Shown here: positions 1 through 28,216 of the stretch, piece by piece
Layout: every line of letters starts with the position of its first letter
Position numbering within the stretch: the stretch's first letter is position 1
Virus record (IMG/VR): IMGVR_UViG_3300020578_000340
Coordinates: 1-28,300 of that record
Length of the DNA: 28,300 bases
Strand: one strand, 5' to 3'
Origin: a virus
Translations under genes and position numbers: made by a program
The notes under the pieces: model-generated
Told to the model about the DNA's origin: nothing
Database searches by the model: none
Seen by the model: the letters and a program-made list of their open reading frames with translations, nothing else

Positions 1-162
1 GACGATACCGAGGCGTTCGCGGTGACGATTCGCGGCGGAGCGGGCGACCGATTCACCGCTGAGGTTGAGTTGCTGGGCGATGTGCGCCCACGACTGGTTC
101 AACTGTCGCATCTCGTATGCTTGGCGGTCAACCCATTCGGTGTGAAGTGTTCGGCGTGGCAT
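1..162 (-). CDS. Small helix-turn-helix protein, partial at window edge
   Basis: Fifty-four codons are open to the window edge without a stop. The visible part begins MPRRTLHTEWVDRQAYEMRQ and continues into a helix-turn-helix-like stretch at residues 20-50 (SWAHIAQQLNLSGESVARSA), with W25, A27, I28 and A29 placed like helix 2 of an HTH and a basic tail after it. This suggests a DNA-binding protein such as a small regulator or terminase-small-subunit-like factor; the family is not certain. The ATG at 162 is preceded by AAGGGAG and lies just downstream of a strong promoter (190-219), so it heads its own transcription unit. The C-terminus is outside the window. Confidence 0.6.
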   Translation of the reverse strand, partial: MPRRTLHTEWVDRQAYEMRQLNQSWAHIAQQLNLSGESVARSAANRHRERLGIV

Positions 163-189
163 CTAGTTGGTGCTCCCTTCCACGACTAC

Positions 190-219
190 ATCGTACCCCA
201 TTCGTGCCCCGTTCGTCAA
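190..219 (-). promoter_or_regulatory. Sigma70-type promoter P1 with GGGG spacer element
   Basis: On the minus strand, TTGACG (214-219) and TACGAT (190-195) are separated by 18 bp. The spacer contains GGGGCA, then CGAAT, then GGGG directly against the -10. A box beginning TTGACAAAAAGT occupies 220-243 just upstream of the -35 and matches the box upstream of P2 at identical spacing. It drives the partial HTH gene. Confidence 0.7.
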
Positions 220-247
220 CCGCTCGGCTTTACTTTTTGTCAAGCGG

Positions 248-706
248 TCAACCAATCTGCTCGCCGTGCCCCGTTCGCACCAGCGGCATCGCATCCCCCA
301 TGTAGAGCACCCTGCCCTCACTGGCGAGCCTGCGGAGCGTCCTCGGGGCGACCCGATAGTAGAGGCTCAGCGACCATGCCCGAGCATCGTCCTCTTTGTC
401 CGCGACCATCCTGCTCGGGTGACTGTGTTGGTAGGCGTGACGGAACTCGTGGAGCAAGGTCACGATTGACGGGTACGGCATGTGGATGCTGTTGGTGGCG
501 TGACGGTAGTAGCCCGCGCCCGCCCCCCGAGGCTGATGGTGCAGTGTCGGCGTTGACACACCGTAGACGGCGGACACCTCAGCCAACCAAAGACGCGACT
601 TCTCCCACTGTGATTCAGGCGGTACTGCTGTCCACCCCTTGATGAGTCGGCGTGTCGCGTCAAGCGTTTTGCGGTGCTGGTTGCGGAATCGGCGATGGTA
701 CCTCAT
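248..706 (-). CDS. Phage zinc metallopeptidase-like protein (HEFRH)
   Basis: A 152-residue protein with the zinc-binding motif HEFRHAYQH at residues 86-94 (H86, E87, H90), followed by an acidic stretch and DARAWSLSLYY at about 107-117 that could supply the third metal ligand. This HExxH plus downstream acidic-residue layout is typical of small phage or ImmA/IrrE-like peptidases; the substrate cannot be told. The N-terminus is strongly basic. The ATG at 706 lies one base after the stop of the preceding gene (TGAcATG), so the two are translationally coupled; longer upstream starts would run inside that gene. It is followed by the P1 intergenic region. A non-proteolytic metal-binding role is possible. 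Confidence 0.65.
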   Translation of the reverse strand: MRYHRRFRNQHRKTLDATRRLIKGWTAVPPESQWEKSRLWLAEVSAVYGVSTPTLHHQPRGAGAGYYRHATNSIHMPYPSIVTLLHEFRHAYQHSHPSRMVADKEDDARAWSLSLYYRVAPRTLRRLASEGRVLYMGDAMPLVRTGHGEQIG

Positions 707-707
707 G

Positions 708-1103
708 TCAATCCATCCTTGAGTAGGCGCCCGCGTTGATTCCGTGCCTCTTGAGCACTTGGACGAACCCCGCGGCGTAAGCGTGTTTGCGTTCCATGCT
801 CTGCCCGTAGTCGCCAACCCAAATCGTCCAGCCGCCTTGGTACGAATCCAAGCGACCGATGCCTTGAGCCTTGAGGTACTTGACGAATCCGCCCCGCGCA
901 GGTTTGATGTTGACCCACGCGAACCCGCAGACGCCCCCCTCCACGACCCATTGCTTACCGCCTTTGAGCGGCGTGTCGGTCAGCCCGACGCTTTCGTAGA
1001 CGAGCATCGGTGTCGGTGTCGTCGCCGTTGCGGCGGCTACGCCGTGTCGGTGAGCCTCCTCATAAATGAGGCGGAAATCTTGCTTGGTTTTGGTGGTGCT
1101 AAT
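708..1103 (-). CDS. Conserved phage protein of unknown function, probable ATT start
   Basis: A 131-residue protein with a conserved-looking C-terminal half (WVNIKPARGGFVKYLKAQGI, then DSYQGGW, WVGDYGQSMERK and AYAAGF). I recall similar sequences in actinophages without a known function. A strong promoter (1128-1156) places the transcript start near 1121, and the mRNA then carries AAAGGAG, six bases, and ATT at 1103-1101. No ATG, GTG or TTG lies in frame at a proper distance: GTG at 1122 precedes the Shine-Dalgarno and ATG at 1140 lies upstream of the -10. The next in-frame ATG (PMLVYE) would remove about 30 residues and lacks such a site. ATT initiation is rare but known (infC). The gene ends one base before the metallopeptidase. 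Confidence 0.7.
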   Translation of the reverse strand: MSTTKTKQDFRLIYEEAHRHGVAAATATTPTPMLVYESVGLTDTPLKGGKQWVVEGGVCGFAWVNIKPARGGFVKYLKAQGIGRLDSYQGGWTIWVGDYGQSMERKHAYAAGFVQVLKRHGINAGAYSRMD

Positions 1104-1229: not shown

Positions 1230-1235
1230 TGAATC

Positions 1236-1697: not shown

Positions 1698-2035
1698 TCG
1701 TTCGTCTGATACCTGACATTGGCGTTCAGCGACCGTAGGGCGTCAATGGATGTGCGGAGGAACAGCAACGATTCCCTGCACGATTTGACGAGCGCTTCGG
1801 CGACCTTGTGGTCGGCGAACAAGTGTTTGCAAGCGTTGTCCGCTTGAGCCTCCCTGTCCCTGATTGTTCCAGCCGTGGTCAGATACATTTTCGCCCACTC
1901 GGCTTTCAACGCCGATTCTTTTTGCGCTGAGTCAACCGCCAGTTTCTCAAACTCCTCGGTCTTGGATTCCAACTCCCAAACGAGTCGCATCATCTCTTTC
2001 TCAACATCTACCTGCGCGATTGGTTGGGTTCTCAC
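1694..2035 (-). CDS. Coiled-coil phage protein of unknown function
   Basis: A 113-residue, mostly alpha-helical and charged protein, with long helices from about residue 10 to 60 and from 70 to 105 (KVAEALVKSCRESLLFLRTS). Similar small helical proteins occur in the replication regions of actinophages, but I know of no assigned role. The GTG start at 2035 overlaps the previous stop in a GTGA coupling and is preceded by GAGGAAGAG; the more upstream ATG at 2098 would lie well inside the neighbour. It is the last gene of the leftward replication cluster and converges tail to tail with the plus-strand zinc-ribbon gene. Confidence 0.65.
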   Translation of the reverse strand: MRTQPIAQVDVEKEMMRLVWELESKTEEFEKLAVDSAQKESALKAEWAKMYLTTAGTIRDREAQADNACKHLFADHKVAEALVKSCRESLLFLRTSIDALRSLNANVRYQTND

Positions 2036-2289
2036 GCCTCTTCCTCGGGGTGTTTGCGGAGGTCGGCGAACAGGGCTTGGTCGGTTACGCCGCACCATTC
2101 AGCAATCTGACGGTAGGGGATGCGCCTCTCTCGTAACCGCCTGACGATGCTTCTGCGTTGCTGTCCGAGACGAATCACCGAGTTTTGGTGCTCTCGCATC
2201 ATCTGGGTCAGCAACTTCACTTTCTTGAGGTCGTCGTCTACCCCCACGGTGTCCAGATTCTCAATGAGTACTTCACCCATGTCTTGCAC
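2032..2289 (-). CDS. Small helix-turn-helix protein
   Basis: An 85-residue protein with an acidic N-terminal third, a helical middle (LTQMMREHQNSVIRLGQQRR) and a C-terminal HTH-like segment at about residues 57-79 (IPYRQIAEWCGVTDQALFAD), typical of small Xre- or sigma-region-4-like DNA-binding domains. It probably binds DNA as a phage regulator; the target is unknown. The GTG start at 2289 is favoured by GGAGG five bases upstream. It overlaps the next gene by GTGA. The acidic tail HPEEEA is encoded by the bases that provide the next gene's ribosome binding site. Confidence 0.65.
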   Translation of the reverse strand: MQDMGEVLIENLDTVGVDDDLKKVKLLTQMMREHQNSVIRLGQQRRSIVRRLRERRIPYRQIAEWCGVTDQALFADLRKHPEEEA

Positions 2290-2313: not shown

Positions 2314-2751
2314 CTACCATTCGTCTATTGGGTCGTTGACTGGATACCCGACGACGAGAATGGTGATGAAATCAAACTTCGCCCGTTGCGGTGCGTGGAA
2401 CTCAATCGCCTCCAAGTGTTCACCAGTGTCATCTTGAAAAAGTCCGCCGTCCACCATGCCGTCAATCGCCGCTTTCACGGCGGGCATACAGGCGCCAGTG
2501 TCTTGCAACCTGCCTTTCATCTCCAGAAACACCGAGACCCGTGCCTGCGTCAACTCAACACAGCCGTATTCTTTGGTCGCATCAGCGAAGATGGTGCGCC
2601 ACTCTTTCGTGTTCTTTGCCCTCGTCCAACGGTTCCCCGCACGCTCAGAGTTCACCGTCCACGGTCTCGCCCGATAATGAAACGAGTACATCAACTCGCC
2701 CTCATCGTTGATGTCGGTGACGATGTTGATGAGCGGGGCAGGCATTGCCAT
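2314..2751 (-). CDS. RusA-like Holliday junction resolvase
   Basis: A 145-residue protein with the RusA layout: an N-terminal beta strand region with PWTVNSERAGNRWTR, a central strand (ARVSVFLEM), then VKAAIDGMVDGGLFQDDTGE at residues 90-109. The aspartates in IDGMVD and QDD occupy the positions of the metal-binding aspartates that RusA uses to cut four-way junctions. Length is close to the usual 120-150. It would resolve recombination or replication intermediates before packaging, which fits the neighbouring exonuclease, annealing protein and HNH nuclease. Either ATG at 2751 or the one at 2745 could be the start, as both lie behind a GGGATGG stretch. One catalytic aspartate cannot be assigned with certainty by eye. 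Confidence 0.75.
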   Translation of the reverse strand: MAMPAPLINIVTDINDEGELMYSFHYRARPWTVNSERAGNRWTRAKNTKEWRTIFADATKEYGCVELTQARVSVFLEMKGRLQDTGACMPAVKAAIDGMVDGGLFQDDTGEHLEAIEFHAPQRAKFDFITILVVGYPVNDPIDEW

Positions 2752-2760: not shown

Positions 2761-3075
2761 TTACTCGGTCTTACGAAGGCGTAGAAGCCCTCTACGAGCC
2801 GCTTCCTTGGGGTTGGCGTGAATCCACTCGTGGCACCAGAAACACACGCCTAGGAGGTTCTCAGGCTGGTTTCCGCCCCCTTGCGACCTGCGGAGGACAT
2901 GATGCACATGGTCAACCTGACCCGAGCATCCCCTCACTCGGGCTTCGCATCGCGACCCACAGCGTTTGATGACCACACCGCGAGCCTTACGCCACTCAGC
3001 GGTCGGTCGCGACTTCCTCTTGAACGCCGTCCGTCTCAAAGGTTTGCCCCGAGCCAACGGCTTTCGGCGTCGCAT
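2761..3075 (-). CDS. HNH endonuclease
   Basis: A 104-residue HNH nuclease. The basic N-terminus (KPLARGKPLRRTAFKRKS) precedes the core: C in RCEARVRGC, then VDHVHHVLRR at about residues 54-63 (catalytic H), N at GGGNQPENLL, then VCFWCHEWIHANP with the C-terminal zinc/histidine motif. Short HNH proteins of this type in phages cut DNA, often near terminase, but this copy sits in the replication cluster and may act in DNA processing or as a free-standing homing-like nuclease. The ATG at 3075 has GGGGAG seven bases upstream and overlaps the helicase-loader gene by 80 bp, unusually long for this genome; internal starts would lose the basic arm. Confidence 0.85.
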   Translation of the reverse strand: MRRRKPLARGKPLRRTAFKRKSRPTAEWRKARGVVIKRCGSRCEARVRGCSGQVDHVHHVLRRSQGGGNQPENLLGVCFWCHEWIHANPKEAARRGLLRLRKTE

Positions 3076-3535
3076 GGCTCAACTCCCCGACTGCCGATAA
3101 CAGTGCCGACCTGTCATGCTCTTCAGCCAGTTTGTCATACAACTTGAAGAAGTGCGCCCTCAACACCCCTTGGTTCTCGCTGTCACAGATTTCCCGCCAA
3201 CCGATTGCGTCAACCGTTTTCTGGACTGCTGGGTCGGCGAACTGCGGGCGACCGTAACGCCCTACATCCCTCAGCAACACCATCACCTGCGACCATCCCT
3301 CAGCGGCGGACGGCGACATCAGCCCCGCCTGCCTCAATACCTCTTTGCGGATGGTAGCCGCACTCGGGAACATCTCGGAGGTGCGGATGATTGCACCAAC
3401 CGACCGTTCACAGTCGCCATACCGCAAATCCCGCAAGACCTCGTGATACATCGCCGCGGTTTCCTTGGAAACTTTCGCATAGGGGTAGGCGCTCGCCAAG
3501 ATGGCGAGTATCGCCGCGGTCTCCCTTTTCTCCAT
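2996..3535 (-). CDS. Replicative helicase loader/inhibitor-like protein
   Basis: A 179-residue protein starting MEKRETAAILAILASAYPYA. Residues 1-70 follow the pattern of the G39P-type helicase loader/inhibitor N-terminal domain: an AYPYAKVSKETAAMYHEVLRD-like stretch, a region around GDCERSVGAIIRTSEMFP, then a loading-domain helix. A C-terminal helical part holds RAHFFKLYDKLAEEHD. It probably brings a DnaB-type helicase (phage-encoded elsewhere or host) to the origin. The start at 3535 overlaps the previous stop (TGATG). The gene follows an initiator-like gene by one open reading frame, as expected of an origin-recognition plus loader pair. The assignment rests on pattern recognition, not alignment. 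Confidence 0.6.
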   Translation of the reverse strand: MEKRETAAILAILASAYPYAKVSKETAAMYHEVLRDLRYGDCERSVGAIIRTSEMFPSAATIRKEVLRQAGLMSPSAAEGWSQVMVLLRDVGRYGRPQFADPAVQKTVDAIGWREICDSENQGVLRAHFFKLYDKLAEEHDRSALLSAVGELSHATPKAVGSGQTFETDGVQEEVATDR

Positions 3536-3987
3536 CAGCCGTCCCACTCCTTTTCGTACAGCACTCGCATCACATCGTCTGGTTGCAACAAGAATCCTAT
3601 GGCGGGATTGTCTGAGTGCTCCGCCAACATCTTGCCTTCCAATCGTTCGGTGTGAGCGAGAATGAAACGGCGCAACCTCGGGACGGACATGACGACGAAA
3701 CTTTCGTTCAATCCGTACACATACACCCACCAATCGGCTTCGGTCACATTTATTCCGCTCGGTTTCCAAATCGGTTCACCGTTCTCGTCGGTTTTGCGTT
3801 GCGCCCACTGGTGCGTTTCCACCACCATCCGCCCGTTACGGTACCTGTCAGCCTTCACTTCCCAACGGCTCTCAAATACCATGAGCACGAAGCCTTCGGC
3901 TCGTAACCCGAACTCCAAATCGTCGGCGAAGTTGAAACGCTCGTAGCGTCGCCCGTCCTTGTCAAACCTCGGTTCGTAACCCGCCAT
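3535..3987 (-). CDS. PD-(D/E)XK-like nuclease, putative
   Basis: A 150-residue protein. Residues 40-90 show a pattern used by small phage PD-(D/E)XK enzymes: WEVKAD (E43, K45), then RMVVETHQ with E57, then KPSGINVTEADWWVYVYG (residues 75-92), where the PSG and T-x-A-D-W/Y-W elements are typical. D23 or E25 near the N-terminus could serve as the first acidic residue. I infer a DNA-end or junction nuclease working with the loader and RusA genes; a resolvase or anti-host nuclease are alternatives. The start at 3987 overlaps the initiator stop by one base (TGATG). No experimental family member can be named with confidence. Confidence 0.5.
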   Translation of the reverse strand: MAGYEPRFDKDGRRYERFNFADDLEFGLRAEGFVLMVFESRWEVKADRYRNGRMVVETHQWAQRKTDENGEPIWKPSGINVTEADWWVYVYGLNESFVVMSVPRLRRFILAHTERLEGKMLAEHSDNPAIGFLLQPDDVMRVLYEKEWDG

Positions 3988-4715
3988 CAGTCATCCCTCT
4001 CCGAGTCCAAGAAATCCATGATGCCACTGACCCTCCTACGGGTTCGCATCGCCTCACCGCGCAGACGGTCAAAATGGTGGCGCAACTTCTCCGTGGAACG
4101 AATGTTCATTGACCAAAACTCCGACTGTGCCGCCCAGCGGATTGCGCCCTCCAAATCCTCCGCGCTCCGACCGTCAATCCGCAACGCCCGCTCCATGCAC
4201 GCGATTGCCTTGTCGTTGGTTGCAGGTCGGTCATAACCGTTTGCCTCCACGAGGTCTGCCAACAGGTTCGTCAAAGCGACGGCGTCGGACATAAAAATGG
4301 ACGGTTCTCTTGTACGGTTCTTGTACGGTTCGGGGGCATCTGGTGCCCCCCGCTCGGTCGTCAGATGCCCCCCGTGAGTGTCGTCAGATGCCCCCCGCTC
4401 ACCAACGAGGGGCACCTCATGCCCCCCGCCCATCATCAGGTTGTAACCCAACGGACGCTTATCGGCGCGAGTGATGTACGCCGCGACGATACGGTCGTCG
4501 CATCGCCGAATCAGCCCACGGCGTTCCAACTCGCGCAGATTGACGCGAATGGCACGCTCGGACAACATCGTGTACCTGCCGATGGTCGCCACCGCGGGGA
4601 ACGCCGATGTGCCGTCAGGACGCGCATGGTTCGCCAATGCAATCATCACCAGTTTCTCGGTCGGTGATTCGCATGGAGCCTCATTCAACACCCACACGAT
4701 TGCCTCTATTGACAT
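3987..4715 (-). CDS. Replication initiator-like winged-helix protein
   Basis: A 242-residue protein. Residues 18-90 form a winged helix of the phage replisome-organizer type (SPTEKLVMIALANHARPDG, FPAVATIGRYTMLSERAIRV, then LERRGLIRR), resembling initiator proteins such as lambda O-like and DnaD-like genes. A glycine- and acid-rich linker at about 96-135 is encoded by a cluster of GGGGGGCAT repeats that look like iterons, so the protein may bind its own gene as origin. The C-terminal half is helical (EDLEGAIRWAAQSEFWSMNI). ATG at 4715 is chosen over TTG at 4730 because GAGGGATGG precedes it. It lies directly upstream of the nuclease and loader genes, and a strong hairpin separates it from the recombination genes. 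Confidence 0.7.
   Translation of the reverse strand: MSIEAIVWVLNEAPCESPTEKLVMIALANHARPDGTSAFPAVATIGRYTMLSERAIRVNLRELERRGLIRRCDDRIVAAYITRADKRPLGYNLMMGGGHEVPLVGERGASDDTHGGHLTTERGAPDAPEPYKNRTREPSIFMSDAVALTNLLADLVEANGYDRPATNDKAIACMERALRIDGRSAEDLEGAIRWAAQSEFWSMNIRSTEKLRHHFDRLRGEAMRTRRRVSGIMDFLDSERDD
4310..4427. repeat. Iteron-like repeat cluster inside initiator gene, putative origin
   Basis: Plus-strand copies of TGCCCCC(C) lie at 4344, 4366, 4389 and 4420, and inverted copies GGGG(G)CA at 4332 and 4409. The copies at 4366 and 4389 are embedded in a longer direct repeat (GTCGTCAGATGCCCCCCG). GGGGGCA at 4332 and TGCCCCC at 4344 form a perfect inverted pair around five bases. Next to them, TTGTACGGTTC is repeated twice head to tail (4310-4320, 4321-4331). 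Position within an initiator gene resembles the lambda origin inside gene O. No clear AT-rich unwinding region is visible beside it, so the origin call is inference. Confidence 0.55.
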
Positions 4716-4826: not shown

Positions 4827-5504
4827 TCAGAACGGCTCTTCGTCCGATGGGCTGAGCAACGAAACTTTCGGTTTCGCTTTCGGTGCTGGTCCGTCCGCTG
4901 GGTTGAGGATGGCGTCAATGACCGACGACGCTTCCTTGGCGGTCATCGCCCCCAATGAGTCAACCTGCTTGCCCAAGGTCTCGGTCGCCAACATGGTCGC
5001 ATCGGCGTTGCGTTCGTCTGCGAGACGCTCAAGGAACTTGATTTGCTTGGGGGTCGCCAAAGAAGCGCCGCCCCCAGTGGAGGGAGGGCGAACCGAGGAC
5101 GGCGCCACCTTTGACTTGGGGAAAAGCGTAGACACTTTTTCTGCGGTCATAACTCCACCTCGGTTGGTCACCTCCTCTGCTGACGCGATGTTGCGCTTGG
5201 TGTCCGCCGCGAGCGCGGCGACGATTGCGCGTCCCCACGCCGATGATTCACACACCATCAACTCCGAACCCCGCAACTGTTGCGAGACGGCAGGGAACGG
5301 CTCCCACGCCATCCCCACGCCTGCGGCTTGGTCATCGGGAGTCCTGTATGCCGCCGCAACCACCACGACGAATACCTTGTCACCGATTTCCACGATGTCG
5401 TAAGGCTTGTTCGGGTTGAGCGGACGAAGGGAACCCTGCGGATACTTGTCCCTGAAGATGGCGATTCGTTCCGCCACCGTCACATAGTCGTCTGAAATGG
5501 GCAT
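4827..5504 (-). CDS. ERF-like single-strand annealing / ssDNA-binding protein
   Basis: A 225-residue protein. Residues 1-115 follow the pattern of small ERF-type phage recombination proteins: YVTVAERIAIFRDKYPQG, a beta-rich middle (KVFVVVVAAAYRTPD), then SELMVCESSAWGRAIVAALA in place of the usual SxLENAETSAxGRAL motif. A Pro/Ser/Gly linker leads to a short helical region (PKQIKFLERLADE) and an acidic tip ending SDEEPF, similar to the bacterial SSB tip that recruits partner proteins. It lies two bases downstream of the YqaJ exonuclease stop, the normal exonuclease-annealase pair for end-driven recombination. The C-rich E-S-S variant of the conserved motif is a departure from the typical family. 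Confidence 0.65.
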   Translation of the reverse strand: MPISDDYVTVAERIAIFRDKYPQGSLRPLNPNKPYDIVEIGDKVFVVVVAAAYRTPDDQAAGVGMAWEPFPAVSQQLRGSELMVCESSAWGRAIVAALAADTKRNIASAEEVTNRGGVMTAEKVSTLFPKSKVAPSSVRPPSTGGGASLATPKQIKFLERLADERNADATMLATETLGKQVDSLGAMTAKEASSVIDAILNPADGPAPKAKPKVSLLSPSDEEPF

Positions 5505-5506: not shown

Positions 5507-6463
5507 TTATTTGCCTTTCTTGTTGATAATCCGCATCGTCCGATACGAGGCGGTGATTTTGGTGAACTCTTTGGCGAGGTCGGGGTGCGCTTTCTCAAAC
5601 GCCTTGGCGTCAAATGCTTCCCTCCCAGCGGTTTCTTTCCACGAGACGACAGGCTCACCGTGGAACAGTCCAACGGTCGCATCCAGCATCGTCTTGGCGA
5701 GCGCGTCCTTTGCCAGTTTCTCCGCTTTCTCCGCATCGGTCTTGGTGCGACGAGCGTTCTCCAGTTCAATCACCCAGCGCATCATGTCGTCATCCAACGC
5801 GACTTCCTTGTCGGTCGCCTTGAAGTAGGTGGCAATCTGCTCGGCGTCCAGTTCGGCGATGAACTCGTCCTGTTTCTCGCCACTGTCCACCAGTTGACCG
5901 AACCGTTCGGTCTCCTCAACGATGAACTGTCTCGCATCGGGGTTGTCCTTCAACTCCACGACGACAATGTTCTGGCGTTTGTCCAACACCGCGAAGATGA
6001 CGGGCACTCCGCCGAGCACCTCGGACTGTGCCCAACCCTGCACACACCAGTCTTGGGGCAAATCGTCCGAGTCCTCAATCGTGTGCGCGGTCGTGGTCTT
6101 GACCTCCACAATCATGCTCGGGTTCTCCTGCTCGTCGGCAGGCAAACCGTCCAACGAAACCATCAGGCGACCCTTGAGGTACTGCCATGCAGGCGTCACC
6201 AACTCCCTCCCGAGCACCCGACCAGCCTCGCCAAGAATCGGTGCCTCAAAGATGTTTCCTCGTCGCATCGCGGGCGTCTCTTCCTTGAGGACTGGTGGCG
6301 TCAACTTGTCAAAAAACAACTCGCCCCTTGTCCGCCACGGCGACACACCCAACAATGCTGGGACATCGGAGGCGCCGAACACACAACGCCCCTCCCATTT
6401 CCACCTGTTGTTGAGCCACGGAATCGTGCCGTGAATCGGTTTCGGAATCATCCTGTAGGTCAT
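5507..6463 (-). CDS. YqaJ/lambda-exonuclease-type viral recombinase
   Basis: A 318-residue protein. GASDVPALLGVSPW (30-43), RRGNIFEAP (68-76), SLDG with D105 and VEVKTTT with E120 and K122 form the PD-(D/E)XK core of YqaJ exonucleases; WCVQGWAQSEVLG (139-151) is the conserved Q-x-Q-like helix. The C-terminal third is a charged helical part with AFEKAHPDLAKEFTK, common in phage members. It degrades one strand from double-strand ends and hands the other to the annealing protein encoded just after it. The ATG at 6463 overlaps the preceding stop (ATGA). Length and motif order match the family, and no key residue appears missing. Confidence 0.9.
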   Translation of the reverse strand: MTYRMIPKPIHGTIPWLNNRWKWEGRCVFGASDVPALLGVSPWRTRGELFFDKLTPPVLKEETPAMRRGNIFEAPILGEAGRVLGRELVTPAWQYLKGRLMVSLDGLPADEQENPSMIVEVKTTTAHTIEDSDDLPQDWCVQGWAQSEVLGGVPVIFAVLDKRQNIVVVELKDNPDARQFIVEETERFGQLVDSGEKQDEFIAELDAEQIATYFKATDKEVALDDDMMRWVIELENARRTKTDAEKAEKLAKDALAKTMLDATVGLFHGEPVVSWKETAGREAFDAKAFEKAHPDLAKEFTKITASYRTMRIINKKGK

Positions 6464-6838: not shown

Positions 6839-7104
6839 CTCCTCGGAATCACTTGCACTTGACTCATTTGGTTGTGCTCAAAGTCAATCGTCCCAGCCAT
6901 CACGACAGCCTTATCGTTCGCATGAACCAAGTACCCCATCGTGTTCATCGCTATCGGCATGGTGTCATCGTCCTCACCGAACGGGAACTCAATCCACACC
7001 TGCTGATGCTCCCAAGTGTCGTACCAAACGATGATGCACGCCCTCGCCACCTTCTTGATGTCGTCGCCGACCAACGAATCAAATAGCGCTGAATACTCGT
7101 CCAC
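6811..7104 (-). CDS. Conserved small phage protein, unknown function
   Basis: A 97-residue protein with a beta-rich pattern: WYDTWEHQQVWIEF, then a turn with acidic residues, MGYLVHANDKAVVMAG and VIPRSCIVAITVL at the end. The GYLV...VV.A...IPR.CI pattern is one I recall from small phage proteins without a role. GTG at 7104 is the only suitable start, 26 bp inside the metallophosphoesterase gene, with a purine-rich stretch before it. The N-terminal part (DDIKKVARACIIVWYD) may be helical. Its end contains the promoter for the recombination genes. Confidence 0.65.
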   Translation of the reverse strand: MDEYSALFDSLVGDDIKKVARACIIVWYDTWEHQQVWIEFPFGEDDDTMPIAMNTMGYLVHANDKAVVMAGTIDFEHNQMSQVQVIPRSCIVAITVL

Positions 7105-8230
7105 GATAAACCGCCTCTCCGTTGATTATGGGAATAATCTCGTAAGTCCACCGACCGCTCGGTAACTCGGTCACGACAGCCAAACCTTGTTGCCACGACT
7201 CAAACCGTTGAATCGGCATACCGACATCATCCACGCCAGACTTCGTGGACGGCACCGCCCCATCCACCCGACACAAACAACCTGGGGAGAAAGCCACCAC
7301 CTGTTCCATCGCATCAGCGACCTCGTAGGTTTCCGAGTGCACCGAAATCCTGTGGATGTGACCCTGAACGAACGACTGGCGTTCGTGCTTGGCGACCTTC
7401 GCGACATCCAACCGCTCACCGTGGATGGCGTACAAGGGCGTCTGACCACCCCCGCCCGCGGCAATCCTGTATCTGGACGCTGGATAAGCACCGAGATAAG
7501 ACACCTTCAACTCGCCCAACCGCAACAGGAACGGCAAGGACAGCACAGGGAAACTGTCGGGCAGGTTGGCTTGCCTGAGTCGCATCGCCGCCATAGCGTT
7601 CCGAGCAACGGCTTTCGGCAATCGGTCGTCGTGGTTGCCGCCAAGCAACACCATCGTCGCCTCCTCGCCGACGACCGCCCGCTGTTCAGCCAAGAATCGG
7701 TGCGCCCTATCCACCGATGGTTGGGTTGTCAGAACGAACTCGGGGAGCACGAGGAACTTGGACGACCATTCGGGGAGGTCAATGAAATCGCCGAGGTTGA
7801 CCACGACATCAGGTTTGATGAATCGCATCAACTGGAGTGCGACGCTCATCGCTTTCTCGTCGTGCATCGGCACCATCGCGTCATCCGACATCCGCCTGAA
7901 CCCGATTTGCGGGTCAGGCAACACCACCGTCACTTTCAGGTCGGTTGTCTTTGGTTTGCTCGCTATCGGGCGGACGATGGTGGGGGCGGCTTGCTGAACT
8001 ACGGGATACTGGGGCGCCTCCTCCCAAGCGGGCGAGAGCACCACGGAAGCCAAATCCACCATCTCCGCTTCGCCCTCGGTGTTCTTGAGGAACCCCTGCC
8101 ATACGCTCAGTTTTTGGATTCGCCCGATGTCGTCAACATCTATCCCCGAGCGTTCCAACAGGGCGATGAGTTTCCCGAGTTTGTCTTTCTTCGTCAACTG
8201 CGATTGTGACAACTCATCCGACAAAGTCAT
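7079..8230 (-). CDS. Metallophosphoesterase
   Basis: A 383-residue calcineurin-like phosphoesterase. Metal-binding motifs appear in order: PDPQIG at 105-110 (D106, with Q108 where most families have H), NLGDFID at 145-151 (G147, D148, D151), GGNHDDR at 197-203, H270 in IHGE and GHIHR at 290-294. The first 95 residues are a helical, charged region not needed for catalysis. Such enzymes hydrolyse phosphodiesters of nucleotides or nucleic acids; substrate and role in this phage are unknown. Start at 8230 overlaps the previous stop (ATGA); the longer reading frame to 8326 lies inside the upstream gene. Q for H in motif one occurs in other phage members. Confidence 0.85.
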   Translation of the reverse strand: MTLSDELSQSQLTKKDKLGKLIALLERSGIDVDDIGRIQKLSVWQGFLKNTEGEAEMVDLASVVLSPAWEEAPQYPVVQQAAPTIVRPIASKPKTTDLKVTVVLPDPQIGFRRMSDDAMVPMHDEKAMSVALQLMRFIKPDVVVNLGDFIDLPEWSSKFLVLPEFVLTTQPSVDRAHRFLAEQRAVVGEEATMVLLGGNHDDRLPKAVARNAMAAMRLRQANLPDSFPVLSLPFLLRLGELKVSYLGAYPASRYRIAAGGGGQTPLYAIHGERLDVAKVAKHERQSFVQGHIHRISVHSETYEVADAMEQVVAFSPGCLCRVDGAVPSTKSGVDDVGMPIQRFESWQQGLAVVTELPSGRWTYEIIPIINGEAVYRGRVFSAI

Positions 8231-8775: not shown

Positions 8776-8779
8776 CGCA

Positions 8780-9549: not shown

Positions 9550-9615
9550 GGTCGTCTCCTGTGTCGGACACAACACTAAAACGCCACACCGAATCCGTGA
9601 ATCAACCCCCGTTGA

Positions 9616-9759: not shown

Positions 9760-9762
9760 GTT

Positions 9763-10032: not shown

Positions 10033-10035
10033 GAT

Positions 10036-12237: not shown

Positions 12238-12240
12238 CGG

Positions 12241-19080: not shown

Positions 19081-19089
19081 GGCTACCTG

Positions 19090-19619: not shown

Positions 19620-19646
19620 GGTATTCTCCTATGTTGTTGTGGTTTT

Positions 19647-20063
19647 TTAGAAGGTTGTTCGGGTAATCTGCCCCGTCACTTGGAAATCCAGTGACGCGGT
19701 CACCACATCTCCGACCGAAGCCGAAACTTCGTAGGAGGTGAGGATGCACTCGCCAGTGTACTTGACTTTGCCAGCCGACGAACCCTCGGGACCGTACTCA
19801 AAGGTGAGCGTTGCCGCCTGCCCGACGACTGCCGACAGGGTGGCGTCCGCCGTGGCGTCAAACTTGCCCGAGACGCTGATGGTCGCATCGCTGAGACCAG
19901 TGATGTAGGTCTTTGCCGACCCAGCGACACCGAATGTCGTGGTCTCGGCGGTTTCCACATCGCGGGGGAAGCCGATGTCGTCCAAGTATGTTGAATAATC
20001 AACGAGCGAACCCGCGGCGTTATCCAACTTGAAAACCGCTGACTTACCGTGTACAAATGCCAT
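19647..20063 (-). CDS. Major tail tube protein, paralogue A
   Basis: A 138-residue protein: MAFVHGKSAVFKLDNAAGSL, DIGFPRDVETAETTTFGVAG, AKTYITGLSDATISVSGKFD, LTFEYGPEGSSAGKVKYTG, ECILTSYEVSASVGDVVTAS, FQVTG. This is the normal size and pattern of a siphovirus tail tube protein. It lies between a paralogue (20079-20801) and the chaperone gene, the expected place for the major tail subunit. The protein forms stacked rings inside which the tape measure lies. Which of the two paralogues is the main tube subunit cannot be decided by sequence. Confidence 0.8.
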   Translation of the reverse strand: MAFVHGKSAVFKLDNAAGSLVDYSTYLDDIGFPRDVETAETTTFGVAGSAKTYITGLSDATISVSGKFDATADATLSAVVGQAATLTFEYGPEGSSAGKVKYTGECILTSYEVSASVGDVVTASLDFQVTGQITRTTF

Positions 20064-20078
20064 GATGGTTGTTTCTCC

Positions 20079-20801: not shown

Positions 20802-21007
20802 TACTTGTCATCCTTTGCAATCGCATCAACGACCACTGGCTCAGGTTGTGGCTCAGGGTCTTTCGTCTTGGGGTCAACGGGTTCAATGATTGCCTGTTCC
20901 CGCAACCATTTGATTGAACGGGGAGGCAAATCCTCAACGACATCGCCGACCTCCGCACGCTTGTTGGGCGGGTAGTCAATCCCTTGTAGAACCTTGTACT
21001 TCGGCAT
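20801..21007 (-). CDS. Small acidic protein before the tail tube genes
   Basis: A 68-residue protein: MPKYKVLQGIDYPPNKRAEV, GDVVEDLPPRSIKWLREQAI, then a Pro/Glu-rich end (KTKDPEPQPEPVVVDAIAKD). The YKVL.GI.YPP..RAE.GD....LP..S..WL pattern is one I recall from small proteins in phage head-tail regions, with no known role. ATG at 21007 has AGGAG four bases upstream; the longer frame to 21052 lacks it. The stop overlaps the start of tail paralogue B, so the two are coupled. Confidence 0.65.
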   Translation of the reverse strand: MPKYKVLQGIDYPPNKRAEVGDVVEDLPPRSIKWLREQAIIEPVDPKTKDPEPQPEPVVVDAIAKDDK

Positions 21008-21056
21008 GTCGCTCCTGAGTGTCTCGGGCGTGCTCGCATCCCCGACTCTCACCCGA

Positions 21057-21152: not shown

Positions 21153-21695
21153 CTAGTCTTTGATTCCCCAGTGCCCCAATCCGCCGTTATCCAACAAATA
21201 CTTGGCGACCCGAAGGTTGCAATCCAACTCCGTCAACAGTTCAATCCCCCCGCCACAAATCTGTCTCGTCACCGTCCGCCAACTTGAGTTGATTTGCAAC
21301 AACCCCGAATCAAAGGAGCCGTTCTTGTTGAGCGCCCACACCATGTTTCCGTTCGCATCCCACTTGGCGTTGACCGCTTTCCTGCGACATCGGCTTTCGC
21401 GGTAGGCGATGTAGGAGAAAGTCTCTACGGGGACGAGTCCGTAGGAGGCGAACAGTTCCTCGTATTGGGGGCACCGCCATCCGCTGGTATCGCGTCGGAT
21501 GGCAACGACCGTGGTGGTGGTCGTGGTGGTCGTGGTGGTCGTGGTGGTCCGAATCGGTAGCGTAGAGGGCACCGAGACGGTAGTGCTCGTGGCGGCGGCA
21601 GGGGCGGACACCTTGGGGGGCAAAACAACCCAGTTGGCGACCATCCCGACCGCCACCCCGACCGCGACCACGCCGATGAAACGGCGTAACGACAT
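21153..21695 (-). CDS. Membrane-anchored transglycosylase/lysozyme-like protein
   Basis: A 180-residue protein. An N-terminal transmembrane or signal-anchor helix (FIGVVAVGVAVGMVANWVVL, about 6-25), a Pro/Ser/Thr stalk ending in about 13 threonines (50-62), then a lysozyme-like catalytic domain: YIAYRESRC with E100, GSFDSGLLQINSSW at 126-139, NLRVAKYLLDNGGLGHW at 160-176. This is the E...GLLQIN layout of Slt/goose-type transglycosylases. It sits between head-tail and tail tube genes, not in the lysis cluster, so it could act in infection (virion-associated), superinfection control or lysis. ATG at 21695 overlaps the preceding small gene (TGATG). The poly-Thr stretch is encoded by a simple repeat. 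Confidence 0.8.
   Translation of the reverse strand: MSLRRFIGVVAVGVAVGMVANWVVLPPKVSAPAAATSTTVSVPSTLPIRTTTTTTTTTTTTTVVAIRRDTSGWRCPQYEELFASYGLVPVETFSYIAYRESRCRRKAVNAKWDANGNMVWALNKNGSFDSGLLQINSSWRTVTRQICGGGIELLTELDCNLRVAKYLLDNGGLGHWGIKD
21510..21549. repeat. Short tandem repeat encoding a poly-Thr stalk
   Basis: Repeats of the 9-bp unit CGTGGTGGT (plus strand) encode about 13 consecutive threonines between the membrane anchor and catalytic domain of the transglycosylase-like protein. Simple repeats of this kind can change length in frame. Confidence 0.75.
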
Positions 21696-21907: not shown

Positions 21908-21936
21908 ACCCTACCGAAATCTTGGTCGCATGGCAA
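21908..21936 (-). promoter_or_regulatory. Sigma70-like promoter for the small-membrane/transglycosylase cassette
   Basis: On the minus strand TTGCCA (21931-21936), 17 bp and TAGGGT (21908-21913), between the Com-like gene and the 37-residue gene. The predicted leader carries GGGAGGAGG before the GTG. The -10 departs from consensus at two positions. Confidence 0.45.
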
Positions 21937-22497: not shown

Positions 22498-22952
22498 CAG
22501 TCGCTCTCCTCGTTCTCGCTGTAGTCAGAATCCAGCCACGGTGGGACGGCACCGCTACGGCGCAGAATGTGCCCGACGAGCAACTTGATGCGTTGCCCAA
22601 GACGGTCGCGAGCATCCGCAACAGGGTCCTCAAGATACTTCGCTTTCCGTCCTGGGGCGTGGCGGAACTTCAGATTTTCGTGCTGTACCCATGCGTAATC
22701 AACGGCGCCCCCACCGTAGGAAATCTCCACCGCCGCTTTCTTCCCAACCTGATACGGCTCATGCACCATCCCCGAACCCGAGAGGACTCCGTACCTGAAC
22801 GGCACCTGTCGTTTGGACTCCGCGAGAATCACTTGGGCTTCCGCATACAGGGCTTCCTTGGTCGCATCAAGCACCTTCTTGTCCCCCGCGTGGAGGATTG
22901 CCGCAACATCGCGCAATCCCGTCACCTCAATGTGCATCAACTTTTTGCTCAC
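22497..22952 (-). CDS. HK97 gp10-like neck protein
   Basis: A 151-residue protein: MHIEVTGLRDVAAILHAGDK, an alpha helix with KEALYAEAQVILAESKRQVP, then PFRYGVLSGSGMVHEPYQVG and VEISYGGGAVDYAWVQHENL, with FRHAPGRKAKYLEDPV after it. The V-P-x-R-x-G-x-L-x-x-S motif and the Y-A-x-x-x-H-E-N element mark the HK97-gp10-like tail component. Its acidic C-terminus (DSDYSENEESD) is a local feature. It completes the neck together with head closure and terminator genes. Confidence 0.85.
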   Translation of the reverse strand: MSKKLMHIEVTGLRDVAAILHAGDKKVLDATKEALYAEAQVILAESKRQVPFRYGVLSGSGMVHEPYQVGKKAAVEISYGGGAVDYAWVQHENLKFRHAPGRKAKYLEDPVADARDRLGQRIKLLVGHILRRSGAVPPWLDSDYSENEESD

Positions 22953-23275: not shown

Positions 23276-23704
23276 TCATCCCGTCAACGGACTAAGCGGA
23301 GGCGTCGTTGTTGAGGCACCAAGGTTCTCATCCATCCCAACATAGAAATCAAACTCGCCGTCAAAAGTGTCGGTGTCAAAGTTGACCGATGGTGGCGCCG
23401 CACGAACAGCCAACACCCGCAACGATGCCGCACGCTCCATAAAAGTTTTCGCCTGCGCCCCGTACTGACTGGAGATAGACAAATCCCCGACCGAACGCGA
23501 AAGGTCAGCCTTTGCGGAGTACTTGCCACTAATCGCATCGCACGCGAACGCCGCCGACAGGTAGCAGTCCGAGTTCCACTCCGTCAACAAGAAGGCAATC
23601 TCCTCGTTGGAAACCTGCTGATTGTTCGTATCGGTGTCGCCACACAGGAAACGAACTTTGTCGTTGGACGAGTTGGAGGGATTACCAGAGTACGACCAAG
23701 TCAC
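23276..23704 (-). CDS. Head-tail connector (Ad1/gp6-type)
   Basis: A 142-residue protein. MTWSYSGNPSNSSNDKVRFL, then CGDTDTNNQQVSNEEIAFLL, a helix (CYLSAAFACDAISGKYSAKA) and VGDLSISSQYGAQAKTFMER. The RF..GDTD....Q.S..EI..LL start is typical of the helical gp6/gp15-like adaptor that binds the portal. The tail-end (PPSVNFDTDTFDGEFDFYVG) is acidic. It starts four bases before the small basic gene's stop. Confidence 0.8.
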   Translation of the reverse strand: MTWSYSGNPSNSSNDKVRFLCGDTDTNNQQVSNEEIAFLLTEWNSDCYLSAAFACDAISGKYSAKADLSRSVGDLSISSQYGAQAKTFMERAASLRVLAVRAAPPSVNFDTDTFDGEFDFYVGMDENLGASTTTPPLSPLTG

Positions 23705-23707: not shown

Positions 23708-23968
23708 TTACTCCTCGGCATCGTTGCGCTTGCGGCTCTTGCGAGTCTTGCGCGTATTGTCCTCCTCCACAACGACAACCTCTGCCTGCTCGGCGACGCG
23801 CTCAGCGACGGGTCGCGGTGACGGAACGGTCGCATCAACCACCTCAACCAGATAACGCCCACTGATGAGCGAACGAAGATTGCGCCAGTTTGCGGCATCC
23901 ACCAACGACCCAGTTGCAATCACCGTGCCGTCACCCTTCGGGATTGGCTTGGTCACTCTGTATGCCAT
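23708..23968 (-). CDS. Small head-region protein with basic tail
   Basis: An 86-residue protein: MAYRVTKPIPKGDGTVIATG, SLVDAANWRNLRSLISGRYL, a valine/glutamate region and a strongly charged end (TRKTRKSRKRNDAEE). The N-terminal half (P..DG....G..VD...WRN...L...RYL) is a pattern seen in small phage head genes placed between capsid and connector. The function is not known. It starts about 64 bases after the capsid stop with AGGAAA before the ATG. The acidic-basic C-terminus could contact nucleic acid or the capsid. Confidence 0.7.
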   Translation of the reverse strand: MAYRVTKPIPKGDGTVIATGSLVDAANWRNLRSLISGRYLVEVVDATVPSPRPVAERVAEQAEVVVVEEDNTRKTRKSRKRNDAEE

Positions 23969-24032: not shown

Positions 24033-24983
24033 CTAGGCAACGCAGTTGCTGAAGAAGTAGCCGAGGTCCGCGCCGATGACTTTCATGTCAAACGAGATTT
24101 CGGCTTCAATGCGGTCAGCCTTGAACTGCTCCATGCGGATGCGGCTGGTGCCGACAGTGGCGCCGAGACCTTGCGACACGCCAGTCCACGACATCACATA
24201 GCCGCCCGAGGGCTGGAGAAGCCCAGCCGAGGGAGCCGAGTAGGTCAGGAGGGCGTTCTTGCCGTGGGTGAAGTCGTAGGCTTGGGTGCCACCTTCGTTG
24301 TTCGTCGCCTTGACAGCCTTCGCCACCATGACACGCGGGATGTCAAACAGGCTCGCCATCAACTCTGCGGTCAATGTCTGCGCCGATGTGTACTTGATGC
24401 GGTCCACCAAGTCGGGGTGATTCTTCAGTTGACGGAATACCTCGTAGCCGAGGACGAGAGTGTTCGGCTCGTAGCCCGTGGTTGAGAGGATTTCCGCCTT
24501 GCCCTCCTCAACATCGTTGAGCGGGTCGGAGTTGGTGTAGTCACTCCAAAGGTTGGTGGGTGTGTCATCCGTAGCCCAAACGCCCGTTGTGAAGAACGAG
24601 GAGACAAACTGCGTCTCCATCTTCAACATGAGGCGCCCAGTGACGAACTCTGCGGCTTCGCGGTCAACCTGAATCGGTGCGTCCGCGTTGGCGCGAGTCT
24701 GGTCGCCGATGTCCTTGTGGAAGGCGAACACATCACACTGGTACGAATCGGTTGACAGCCCGTAGCCGCCGCCCGCCGACTCGGTCGCATCGGCGCGACG
24801 CTGTGCCTCGTCGCGGAACCAGTCATTCTTCGTGTAGGTGAAGAACTTGTCGGATTGCTTGGAGACGGGAACAATCGGGAACACGCGGCTCGCGATGAAG
24901 TTCTCTTGCATCTGCATGTAGGCGACGCTGATGTTCGTCAGAATCGCATCAACATGGACTTGTGAGGATGTTGGCTGTGGCAT
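24033..24983 (-). CDS. Major capsid protein
   Basis: A 316-residue protein: VDAILTNISVAYMQMQENFI, ASRVFPIVPVSKQSDKFFTY, DEAQRRADATESAGGGYGLS, DIGDQTRANADAPIQVDREA, a helical spine-like region (AEFVTGRLMLKMETQFVSSF) and TLVLGYEVFRQLKNHPDLVD with a C-terminal beta region. The start pattern (SQVHVDAILTNIS...Q...F.A.RVFP.V.V..) and length are those of HK97-fold major capsid proteins of environmental siphoviruses. It forms the icosahedral shell. The next gene upstream is decoration-like and the one before is scaffold-like, as expected. Confidence 0.9.
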   Translation of the reverse strand: MPQPTSSQVHVDAILTNISVAYMQMQENFIASRVFPIVPVSKQSDKFFTYTKNDWFRDEAQRRADATESAGGGYGLSTDSYQCDVFAFHKDIGDQTRANADAPIQVDREAAEFVTGRLMLKMETQFVSSFFTTGVWATDDTPTNLWSDYTNSDPLNDVEEGKAEILSTTGYEPNTLVLGYEVFRQLKNHPDLVDRIKYTSAQTLTAELMASLFDIPRVMVAKAVKATNNEGGTQAYDFTHGKNALLTYSAPSAGLLQPSGGYVMSWTGVSQGLGATVGTSRIRMEQFKADRIEAEISFDMKVIGADLGYFFSNCVA

Positions 24984-26235: not shown

Positions 26236-26306
26236 CTGGTTGCTCCGAATCTGGACAGATGTGAGTGTAGAACAGCAGTCGCATCAGCCGTACCGTCAAG
26301 GGCGGT

Positions 26307-26645
26307 TTAGTAGTGGCTGGATTTGGAACGCCTCACCAACCCGTCACCATACGCCTCCGCAATCTCCACCAAATCATCCACGAGAGACAACCGCTCATCG
26401 TCATCCTCCACACCTTCGCATCGCTCCAAGATGGCTTGGCGCAACAACAAACCGTAAGACACCGAACTCGTCATGCTCAACAAATCCTTGGCTTCCTCAT
26501 TCTCGGTCATCTGTTCCATGACCACCATCGCCCGATTGAACCGTTGCTCACTGCGATGACGCAAATACAACAACACCCCGAGCACGACGAACACCGTCAA
26601 CACCGAGACGGTTGAACCAAGCACGAAGTACAGCCCGCTGGACAT
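26307..26645 (-). CDS. Membrane-anchored protein in head module
   Basis: A 112-residue protein with one N-terminal transmembrane helix (LYFVLGSTVSVLTVFVVLGV, about 5-24, continuing to LLYL) and a cytoplasmic helical part (QRFNRAMVVMEQMTENEEAK, RLSLVDDLVEIAEAYGDGLV). No family is recognised. A membrane protein inside a head gene block is unexpected; it may be a moron or an exclusion protein, or may help with assembly at the membrane. It starts 22 bases after the winged-helix gene stop and precedes the scaffold by about 70 bases. Confidence 0.6.
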   Translation of the reverse strand: MSSGLYFVLGSTVSVLTVFVVLGVLLYLRHRSEQRFNRAMVVMEQMTENEEAKDLLSMTSSVSYGLLLRQAILERCEGVEDDDERLSLVDDLVEIAEAYGDGLVRRSKSSHY

Positions 26646-26667
26646 GCGAGCGATGATACAGCAGGCG

Positions 26668-27087
26668 CTAAGCCCGCACCTTCTTTACGCGCCTTTGGGT
26701 TGCCATCTTCCCACGCTCCGCAACCGCCCGCGCCTCGTCCGCGTGCCCGCGAACCTCATACTTACCGTGCCCTGTCTTGCGGAACAGATGCGGGTTCTCT
26801 CGGAAGAACCTGCTCACCGTTGAGGTCGGCAGGGTGAACTGTTCGGCGAGCATCGCCACCGTCACCTCTTTGGCGAAGTGCTCTTCTTGCTTCGCATAGA
26901 ACAGCAGTTGGTCGGTGCCCTCAAAGGGGACGACCGAGACATGCTCGGGCAGGGCGTTGCGTCCGCTGGAGTATCCAGTCTCGCCGCCGACGATGTGATA
27001 CGAACCGTCGCGGTTGACGCCCAAGAACACGAATCTGCCTTTCGGTTCCTTGCTCCAGTAGACGGTGTCTCCTCGGTTGAATGTCAT
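26668..27087 (-). CDS. Winged-helix protein with N-terminal beta domain
   Basis: A 139-residue protein. An N-terminal SH3-like strand region (NRGDTVYWSKEPKGRFVFLG, RDGSYHIVGGETGYSSGRNA) precedes a winged helix at about 70-110 (VTVAMLAEQFTLPTSTVSRF, FRENPHLFRKTGHGKYEVRG). The tail is basic (ATQRRVKKVRA). I infer a DNA-binding regulator or DNA-end protein. ATG at 27087 has GGAAGGAGACCAC upstream, so it is preferred over the longer frame. It lies at the head of a gap with possible terminator, suggesting it starts a separate transcript within the head region. Confidence 0.65.
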   Translation of the reverse strand: MTFNRGDTVYWSKEPKGRFVFLGVNRDGSYHIVGGETGYSSGRNALPEHVSVVPFEGTDQLLFYAKQEEHFAKEVTVAMLAEQFTLPTSTVSRFFRENPHLFRKTGHGKYEVRGHADEARAVAERGKMATQRRVKKVRA

Positions 27088-27146
27088 GTGGTCTCCTTCC
27101 TCCACAATCACAGTCTAGCGGATGCCTGTACCACAAAACGGTCAAC

Positions 27147-27164
27147 AGCACCGAAAACGGCGCT
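27147..27164 (-). terminator. Possible terminator hairpin after the head-associated gene
   Basis: In the 142-bp gap at 27088-27229, a 7-bp stem (AGCGCCG/CGGTGCT on the minus strand, one G-U pair) with a TTTT loop follows a T-rich run (TTTTATTTTTG). The run of T lies before, not after, the stem, so this is a weak call. A TTGACC at 27140-27145 and TAGACT at 27112-27117 are 22 bp apart and do not make a proper promoter. Confidence 0.35.
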
Positions 27165-27229
27165 TAGCAAAAATAAAACCCTTGCCACGCTTGGCTCAAA
27201 ACTTTTACAAAAAATAAGTTGCGACGATT

Positions 27230-28216
27230 TTACGAAGAGAGATACCCTGGCGAAGTTTCGTCCTCAAACTCCTCCATTGCCTGCACATTAGCCCTCGCGC
27301 TCGCGACACGCGCCTGCAAGATTGCCCGCGTCTCCGTGTTGTTCCTACTAAGCGGACCGCCACCGAAAATCTGACGCGAGCGTATTTTTCCGCTCTCAAA
27401 CCCCTCAAGCACATCCTCTTCTGTTTTTAGTTTTTCGCGTAAAGCCTTCAAGTCAGAACCGCGGAAACGAGCCACACCATCATCACCGCGTTTCATTTCA
27501 GCCTTGCTCGTCTCAACATTCAACTTGTAGGTTGGCGTGTCCTTCAGACCGCGCAACGCGCCTGCTTCCCTTTCACGCTTCTGGTCTCTTTCCGCCAGTA
27601 TCGCCCGCACATTTGCCTCAATCCGAGCCTGTTGTTCTGGAGTGCGTTCTGGTAACTTGGGAAGATTGGCGAATGTCGCATCGGAAACGACTGTGGTGAC
27701 GCCAGGATACTTGGCTCGGTCCTTGAACTCTTGTGCAATCGCCCGACGCTCTTCACTTGTCCGAGCGGCACTCATCCTGTCCGCATACTCCTTTTGGTCA
27801 GCGGCAGACAAGTCATCTATGTCTTTGCCGCGCTTACGCGGCTCACCAAAACGGTTCAGCCCACGCTCTTCCTGTATTCTCGCCATGTTTTCTTTATTTT
27901 TCTTCCGATTTGACCGTGCGGCTTGGCTTCGGCGTTGTTCCATTGTTGGACGCTTACTGCTCTGCGGATTGGTGCCACCTTTCTGATGCCCTTTCCAACG
28001 CTGTTCCGCCGCGTACCTGCCTGCCGCGCTACGGTCGCCACCAAAAGAGGCTTTGCTCATCGCATCGGTCAACAAGACGCCCGTGTATCCGCCGACCTCG
28101 CGCACGCCACCAGCCTTGTCCACCTCCTGCTCAACCAACTTCCACTGGTCATCGGGGATGTGGCTCAACAACCGTTCCCGAATCTGAGCAAGGAGCATCT
28201 CGTCAGCCAAACGCAT
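27230..28216 (-). CDS. Basic head-associated protein with GGDRSAAGRYAAEQRW motif
   Basis: A 328-residue charged, mostly helical protein. An N-terminal domain (MRLADEMLLAQIRERLLSHI) precedes FGGDRSAAGRYAAEQRWKGH at 58-77, a motif I have seen at linker positions in several phage head proteins. A long basic helical region follows (NRKKNKENMARIQEERGLNR) and a C-terminal helical end (ILQARVASARANVQAMEEFE). No HExxH, serine protease or ART motif is visible. It is placed between the presumed portal and capsid modules, so a head-morphogenesis role is likely. The ATG at 28216 follows AAAGGA; the frame extends upstream to a TTG, which would overlap the neighbour's end. Confidence 0.6.
   Translation of the reverse strand: MRLADEMLLAQIRERLLSHIPDDQWKLVEQEVDKAGGVREVGGYTGVLLTDAMSKASFGGDRSAAGRYAAEQRWKGHQKGGTNPQSSKRPTMEQRRSQAARSNRKKNKENMARIQEERGLNRFGEPRKRGKDIDDLSAADQKEYADRMSAARTSEERRAIAQEFKDRAKYPGVTTVVSDATFANLPKLPERTPEQQARIEANVRAILAERDQKREREAGALRGLKDTPTYKLNVETSKAEMKRGDDGVARFRGSDLKALREKLKTEEDVLEGFESGKIRSRQIFGGGPLSRNNTETRAILQARVASARANVQAMEEFEDETSPGYLSS

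Follow-up and report, generated by a model that had tools for sequence, protein, structure and literature searches.

A strand-polar DNA word in a family of uncultured phages is excluded from its own neighbourhood and from a distance that follows tape-measure length

The IMG/VR fragment IMGVR_UViG_3300020578_000340 (positions 1 to 28,300, hereinafter the window) belongs to a family of uncultured bacterial viruses in which the DNA word GATGCGA is present in dozens of same-facing copies. Here, we report two results on this family. Firstly, the word obeys a spacing rule: it is under selection, faces one way, and is excluded both from the immediate vicinity of its other copies and from a second distance that scales with the length of the tape measure protein. 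Secondly, the word is paired with a short peptide tag repeated in several phage proteins; word and tag co-occur and are replaced together. These features suggest, with about even chances of being right, that the words dock tagged virion proteins riding the DNA through the tail, with only one loaded site at either of its two gates at any moment.

The exact count in the window is 42 GATGCGA on the minus strand (TCGCATC on the plus strand) and four on the plus strand, whereas the minus-strand expectation is 2.3 from composition and 3.4, 4.2, and 7.8 under Markov models of order 1, 2, and 3, respectively. A preliminary description, made by eye, had proposed a selected polar word with about 42 versus four copies, composition predicting roughly two per strand; its counts turned out to be exact and its sites correctly placed. 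The 7-mer count against Markov expectations, which it had suggested as a check, ranks GATGCGA as the most exceptional 7-mer of the window at all three orders. Near-matches are indeed few: all 21 one-mismatch neighbours are present in 0–7 copies each on the minus strand. The flanks are pyrimidine-rich (YGATGCGAY, 36/42 and 33/42, respectively). The functional unit is slightly shorter and looser than GATGCGA, namely ATGCGA with the core TGCGA; in some relatives ATGCGT and GATGCGT are also accepted. The sites in the window, all of them exact matches, are as follows.

106..112, minus strand, GATGCGA site
289..295, minus strand, GATGCGA site
1985..1991, minus strand, GATGCGA site
2194..2200, minus strand, GATGCGA site
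2577..2583, minus strand, GATGCGA site
2945..2951, minus strand, GATGCGA site
3070..3075, minus strand, ATGCGA site
3475..3480, minus strand, ATGCGA site
3565..3571, minus strand, GATGCGA site
4044..4050, minus strand, GATGCGA site
4498..4504, minus strand, GATGCGA site
4669..4674, minus strand, ATGCGA site
4997..5003, minus strand, GATGCGA site
5677..5683, minus strand, GATGCGA site
5932..5938, minus strand, GATGCGA site
6263..6269, minus strand, GATGCGA site
6918..6923, minus strand, ATGCGA site
7309..7315, minus strand, GATGCGA site
7580..7586, minus strand, GATGCGA site
7823..7829, minus strand, GATGCGA site
8232..8238, minus strand, GATGCGA site
8463..8468, minus strand, ATGCGA site
8775..8781, minus strand, GATGCGA site
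9137..9143, minus strand, GATGCGA site
9432..9438, minus strand, GATGCGA site
12462..12467, minus strand, ATGCGA site
12777..12782, minus strand, ATGCGA site
13747..13753, minus strand, GATGCGA site
14370..14376, minus strand, GATGCGA site
14937..14943, minus strand, GATGCGA site
15381..15387, minus strand, GATGCGA site
15591..15597, minus strand, GATGCGA site
15996..16002, minus strand, GATGCGA site
16710..16716, minus strand, GATGCGA site
17250..17256, minus strand, GATGCGA site
18912..18917, minus strand, ATGCGA site
19320..19325, minus strand, ATGCGA site
19458..19463, minus strand, ATGCGA site
19883..19889, minus strand, GATGCGA site
20405..20411, minus strand, GATGCGA site
20821..20827, minus strand, GATGCGA site
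21034..21040, minus strand, GATGCGA site
21353..21359, minus strand, GATGCGA site
21926..21931, minus strand, ATGCGA site
22862..22868, minus strand, GATGCGA site
23533..23539, minus strand, GATGCGA site
23830..23836, minus strand, GATGCGA site
24785..24791, minus strand, GATGCGA site
24944..24950, minus strand, GATGCGA site
26279..26285, minus strand, GATGCGA site
26416..26422, minus strand, GATGCGA site
26892..26897, minus strand, ATGCGA site
27676..27682, minus strand, GATGCGA site
28060..28066, minus strand, GATGCGA site

Most of the sites lie inside genes, as called by our own simple predictor, with all three frames represented. Synonymous shuffling that preserved both the proteins and the codon usage left 6.7 ± 2.2 GATGCGA in the predicted genes versus 36 observed (z = 13.5). 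This rules out codon or dipeptide usage as the cause, in agreement with the preliminary description, which had dismissed codon choice and a protein motif. Over 11 phages, the excess by frame is 4.7-, 6.8-, and 6.8-fold; in intergenic DNA, it is about 15-fold relative to composition. Furthermore, ATGCGA is kept at 39 out of 52 copies (75%) between the window and G003, a relative 78% identical to it over the aligned bases, compared to 30% for all 6-mers. Because the excess survives Markov correction and synonymous shuffling, is seen in all frames and between genes, and is conserved in G003, the word is under selection at the DNA level. A stretch of 3 kilobases (kb) over glycine-rich tail genes (9439–12461) has no coding-strand ATGCGA and is perhaps recently acquired DNA.

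The window has an actinophage-like capsid protein, through which its relatives were retrieved; the contigs, denoted below by our own labels, are fragments and partly related to one another.

24033..24983, minus strand, major capsid protein gene (PHROG 1005), which served to find the relatives

The polar excess over whole contigs of the relatives (coding to reverse strand) is 75:0, 60:0, 72:1, 74:6, 56:6, and 47:0. Relatives G012, G019, and G022 have no such word, while G007 has a different polar word, TGSTGAW (97:2 for TGCTGA). The capsid protein of G007 is 87% identical to that of the window versus 78% for several GATGCGA phages. The word types are interleaved on the capsid tree.

The spacing of the word, which the preliminary description had not addressed, is strongly non-random. 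In nine phages, no ATGCGA pair is closer than 50 base pairs (bp) versus 67 expected, the smallest gap being 64 bp, and the gaps concentrate at 150–400 bp; the site patterns and window widths used in this and the following pair counts were picked on the data. The same short-range exclusion holds for the G007 word in the form TGSTGAWM, with no pairs below 87 bp. When all words of 5 to 7 letters were scanned without bias, the most self-excluded one in the word-bearing phages was TGCGA/ATGCGA or, overlapping with it, ATGCG; the same scan gave nothing comparable in named phages, and the named relatives, Arthrobacter phages Ottawa and Kovu, Microbacterium phage ValentiniPuff, Pseudomonas phage KPP23, and Roseobacter phage RDJL Phi 2 have neither an excluded word nor a repeated tag. 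The variant GTGCGA has no overall excess (166 versus 138 on the other strand) and yet is purged near the sites (3 versus 53.5); thus, close pairs are harmful rather than merely unnecessary. As a separate observation on variants, CTGCGA (42 versus 180, coding versus other strand) and TTGCGA (53 versus 210) are rare on the coding strand of the word-bearing phages, as though there were selection against weaker forms of the site.

The distribution of pair distances contains a second hole near 750 bp, whose position is specific to each phage and follows the length of the tape measure protein.

14308..19080, minus strand, tape measure protein gene, 1590 amino acids (PHROG 1535, tail length tape measure; homologous by BLAST to tape measures of other phages, including G446)

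The empty distance is about 510 bp for a tape measure of 1015 amino acids, about 600–610 bp for 1170 amino acids, and 720–820 bp for 1453–1618 amino acids, that is, about 0.5 bp, or about 0.16 nm, per residue. At 0.513 bp per residue, 74 pairs were observed versus 255 expected when 17 phages were pooled, and none of 2000 permutations of the tape-measure lengths matched this depletion. Distance and length correlate with a Spearman coefficient of 0.85 over the 17 phages; the per-phage line has a slope of 0.49 bp per residue and an intercept of 24 bp, and fitting the pooled data gives 80 + 0.45 bp per residue, the latter slope being 0.15 nm per residue. In the window, 816 bp is predicted at 0.513 bp per residue, and the stretch of 784–876 bp is empty. 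The G007 word has its own second distance, with a tape measure of 1170 amino acids, and the more distant G451, whose word is ATGCGA, has a hole at roughly 690–870 bp. Exclusion is specific to the strand and to the word: reverse-strand copies are present as expected (61 observed versus 62 expected, and 65 versus 67), other words show neither hole, and no partner word was found at the second distance, where depletion is confined to the word and its variants.

In tails, tape measure proteins span 0.145–0.15 nm per residue (PMC5099701), and the pooled slope agrees with this value. Since the second distance follows tape-measure length at 0.15 nm per residue, it is probably the stretch of DNA reaching from one end of the tail to the other, so that the tail length known to be set by the tape measure at about 0.15 nm per residue (PMC5099701) would here be written into the spacing of a DNA word. 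The empty distance might instead be a protein–DNA loop, or some other length merely correlated with tape-measure length. The 17 phages are not independent, and two short-tailed ones carry most of the slope; still, the long-tailed set, from which the three shortest tape measures are dropped, retains a Spearman coefficient of 0.74 (p = 0.003), and with the two shortest dropped, 10 out of 3000 permutations match. We consider such a chance correlation quite improbable, given also the equality with the known 0.15 nm per residue and the outcome for G446. The rule of 0.51 bp per residue was written down before this phage was fetched, so it served as a genuine prediction: G446 has the same word as the long-tailed phages and a tape measure of 1015 amino acids (by BLAST homology), and its hole is shifted to 508–518 bp, as predicted, with none at 775 bp. 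Spooling of DNA in the capsid was rejected as the source of the second distance, as there is no dip at its multiples and it varies with tape-measure length.

A comparison of genes common to the word-bearing phages and missing from the word-less ones yielded proteins with nothing in common but a short stretch, RSxAGRYAAxxRW. There are ten copies in eight proteins of G016, 12 in seven of G010, and eight in eight of G018, and none in the word-less relatives. Each near-complete genome has 8–12 tags in 6–8 proteins, many different proteins sharing one short, putative targeting sequence. One of the tagged proteins is a topoisomerase IB. The genes of the tagged proteins are located mainly upstream of the capsid gene, and fragments lacking this region could not be scored for tags; the window has a single copy, at its edge.

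27230..28267, minus strand, 345-amino acid protein in which the repeated tag occurs once (assigned to neither a Pfam nor a PHROG family)
27995..28033, minus strand, tag core RSAAGRYAAEQRW within SKASFGGDRSAAGRYAAEQRWKGHQK, conserved in homologues, modelled as a short helix where prediction confidence is low

The tag is among the few invariant blocks in the homologues of this protein. A different tag was looked for in G007 as a genuine prediction from its different word, and was found: GHPFRGNQW, in nine copies in six proteins. G451 has the variant tag RSAAGRKAAxARW, and G012 and G019 have neither word nor tag. Thus, word and tag are replaced together, as G007 has both another word and another tag and G451 has a variant tag. 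The tag of the GATGCGA type had no match among solved structures or isolated phages, nor in the papers searched. The G007 tag weakly matches (E 0.3) a protein of Xanthomonas phage Rb1 (PQ569993, 51801–55466) annotated as an internal head protein.

Taking these observations together, we suggest that GATGCGA/ATGCGA may be a docking site, read on one strand, for the RSxAGRYAAxxRW tag, which would be a short DNA-binding element fused to many virion proteins of the family. The packaged genome would then be strung with tagged proteins every few hundred base pairs, and on infection the DNA would exit via the long tail with these passengers attached. A loaded site would meet resistance at the tail entrance (the head–tail neck) and at the exit (the tail tip or cell envelope), but not in between. 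A single loaded site would be favoured, as it delivers a protein, and the driving force could cope with it, while two sites engaged together would be selected against: pairs closer than about 65–90 bp would put both sites into a single gate, and a separation of one tail length would put one into each. Genome positions traverse the tail solely at ejection, and pairs are banned at zero and at one tail length; therefore, two words would never be at both gates together. Words inside the tube would not matter. Binding of the tag to the word, the presence of tagged proteins in the virion and their movement with the DNA, and the mechanical nature of the cost are all inferred from the genomes. Of the roles listed in the preliminary description, that of a site recognised by a packaging protein comes closest to this proposal.

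Several observations weigh against docking. Folded proteins are not expected to pass through the tail tube of a siphophage. The AlphaFold model of the tag is a short helix in a low-confidence stretch, and the tagged proteins mostly have no recognisable domain. The related G018 and G434 show only a shallow dip near the expected distance. The slope of distance on tape-measure length leans heavily on the two short-tailed phages, although it is also significant with these left out. L031, an 8 kb fragment, has one RSAAGRFAAQQRW tag and no clear word excess. Moreover, another kind of repeated tag, KHGSHDQKTHG, is found in several proteins of G022, L074, L248, L278, and similar contigs with capsid identity of about 67–73%, and no word with exclusion was detected in those examined; other tag systems may have no word, or one that escaped detection.

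Two other explanations also invoke ejection. The tail machine itself, with the neck or portal and the tail tip as readers, could read the word directly on protein-free DNA and pause or grip there, controlling ejection like an escapement, the tagged proteins being separate co-inherited cargo. Two readers a tail apart would suffice for both exclusion zones and the scaling with tail length, and in vitro DNA ejection with pauses is known in other phages, from studies of phage T5. It is nevertheless unlikely, since in G007 the word has changed along with the tag, while the neck and tail genes are common to word-bearing and word-less relatives. Alternatively, the word could mark where a particular strand is nicked, as happens in phage T5 and phiKMV-like phages; close nicks would then lose a strand fragment, and nicks at both tail ends would break or jam the DNA. 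Single-strand polarity, the mild deficit of reverse-strand copies (34 versus 50.9 expected), and the encoded nucleases (HNH, RusA-like) are compatible with nicking, and the interruptions in those phages are likewise one-strand sites in virion DNA tied in the literature to ejection. However, a duplex of 60–90 bp between nicks would be stable, leaving the width of the short zone unexplained, as are the co-varying peptide tags; in addition, the known interruptions differ in sequence and come with no tags. We regard nicking as rather improbable.

The preliminary description had also listed Chi-like, KOPS-like (FtsK orienting polar sequence), and mRNA-level roles, which fared worse. A host-determined word, either protecting DNA from a recombination nuclease, as Chi sites of RecBCD/AddAB do, or directing DNA pumping, would be polar, 6–8 bp long, and variable among related phages, as observed. 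Chi sites are likewise short, strand-polar, and over-represented, and KOPS and SRS (SpoIIIE recognition sequences), read by the translocases FtsK and SpoIIIE, as well as the recognition sequences of the translocase TraB, are polar words too. WhiB, encoded by two relatives, points to actinobacterial hosts and is the sole basis for this host class. In 397 Actinomycetota genomes, the density of GATGCGA is at most about 0.33 per kb; 13 of the richest, which are candidates and may not include the true host, have no excess over Markov order 3, and sampled Actinomycetota segments show no coding-strand polarity. Two scans of all viral contigs with triple-word patterns found dispersed enrichment in this phage lineage only and in no unrelated contig, the remaining matches examined being short tandem repeats or chance. 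GATGCGA also occurs as tandem-repeat DNA in unrelated viruses (L145, L149, L163, and similar contigs), a separate phenomenon. A host-determined word gives no reason for exclusion at the tail length, which has no counterpart in KOPS, SRS, or TraB sequences; Chi sites, in turn, lack the two exclusion zones and the co-variation with a phage-encoded tag. Given also the different word of the close relative G007, this origin is very improbable and mostly refuted.

Slightly less probable still, and mostly refuted as well, is a strand bias due to avoidance of Type III-like restriction or a site acting in mRNA, to which the match of polarity to the coding strand and the slight depletion of reverse copies would conform. 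EcoP15I sites in phage T7 similarly keep a single orientation across the whole genome, but under avoidance one orientation should become rare, whereas here the opposite one is gained 5- to 15-fold, with ordered spacing. A role in mRNA predicts neither the equal or higher enrichment between genes nor the tail-length rule. Stoperators of cluster A mycobacteriophages resemble the word in being numerous, asymmetric, and in one orientation, and are bound by a phage protein; they are 13 bp long and mostly intergenic, unlike the 5–7 bp core described here, which lies mostly in genes and in all frames.

In two relatives, other sequence features stand out. G018 (L092–L094) has an opposite-strand gene block (17618–20738) with few words in either orientation, possibly a recent insertion. 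In G010 (L081–L084), both strands have a strong excess of CCCGGAA/TCCGGGG words, which may belong to a repeated stem-loop or some other palindromic site.

A close parallel to the tagged proteins, which are known here from their genes, is provided by internal virion proteins ejected with the genome (the internal proteins of T4, the core of T7, and the ejection proteins of giant phages with capsid-targeting sequences), many of which share a short targeting sequence. Sequence-specific docking on the genome and a tail-length spacing rule are not described for those systems, and the genomes studied here are long-tailed and siphophage-like. In a search limited to openly licensed papers, we found none naming GATGCGA or such a spacing rule, and no known system of this kind.

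We thus put forward, somewhat tentatively and at slightly less than even chances, a modular genome-as-conveyor, in which swappable pairs of a tag and its cognate word would carry diverse virion proteins through the tail, the mechanics of passage being recorded as a spacing rule that gives the tail length. This bears on the open questions of how phage genomes are ejected and how early phage proteins enter the cell. If true, the spacing would preserve in the sequence itself the trace of a mechanical event, the DNA leaving the virus via the tail; tail length could be inferred from base order alone, and the points of the machine that meet resistance would become testable. Siphophages would then have a swappable tag/word code for delivering many proteins with their DNA.

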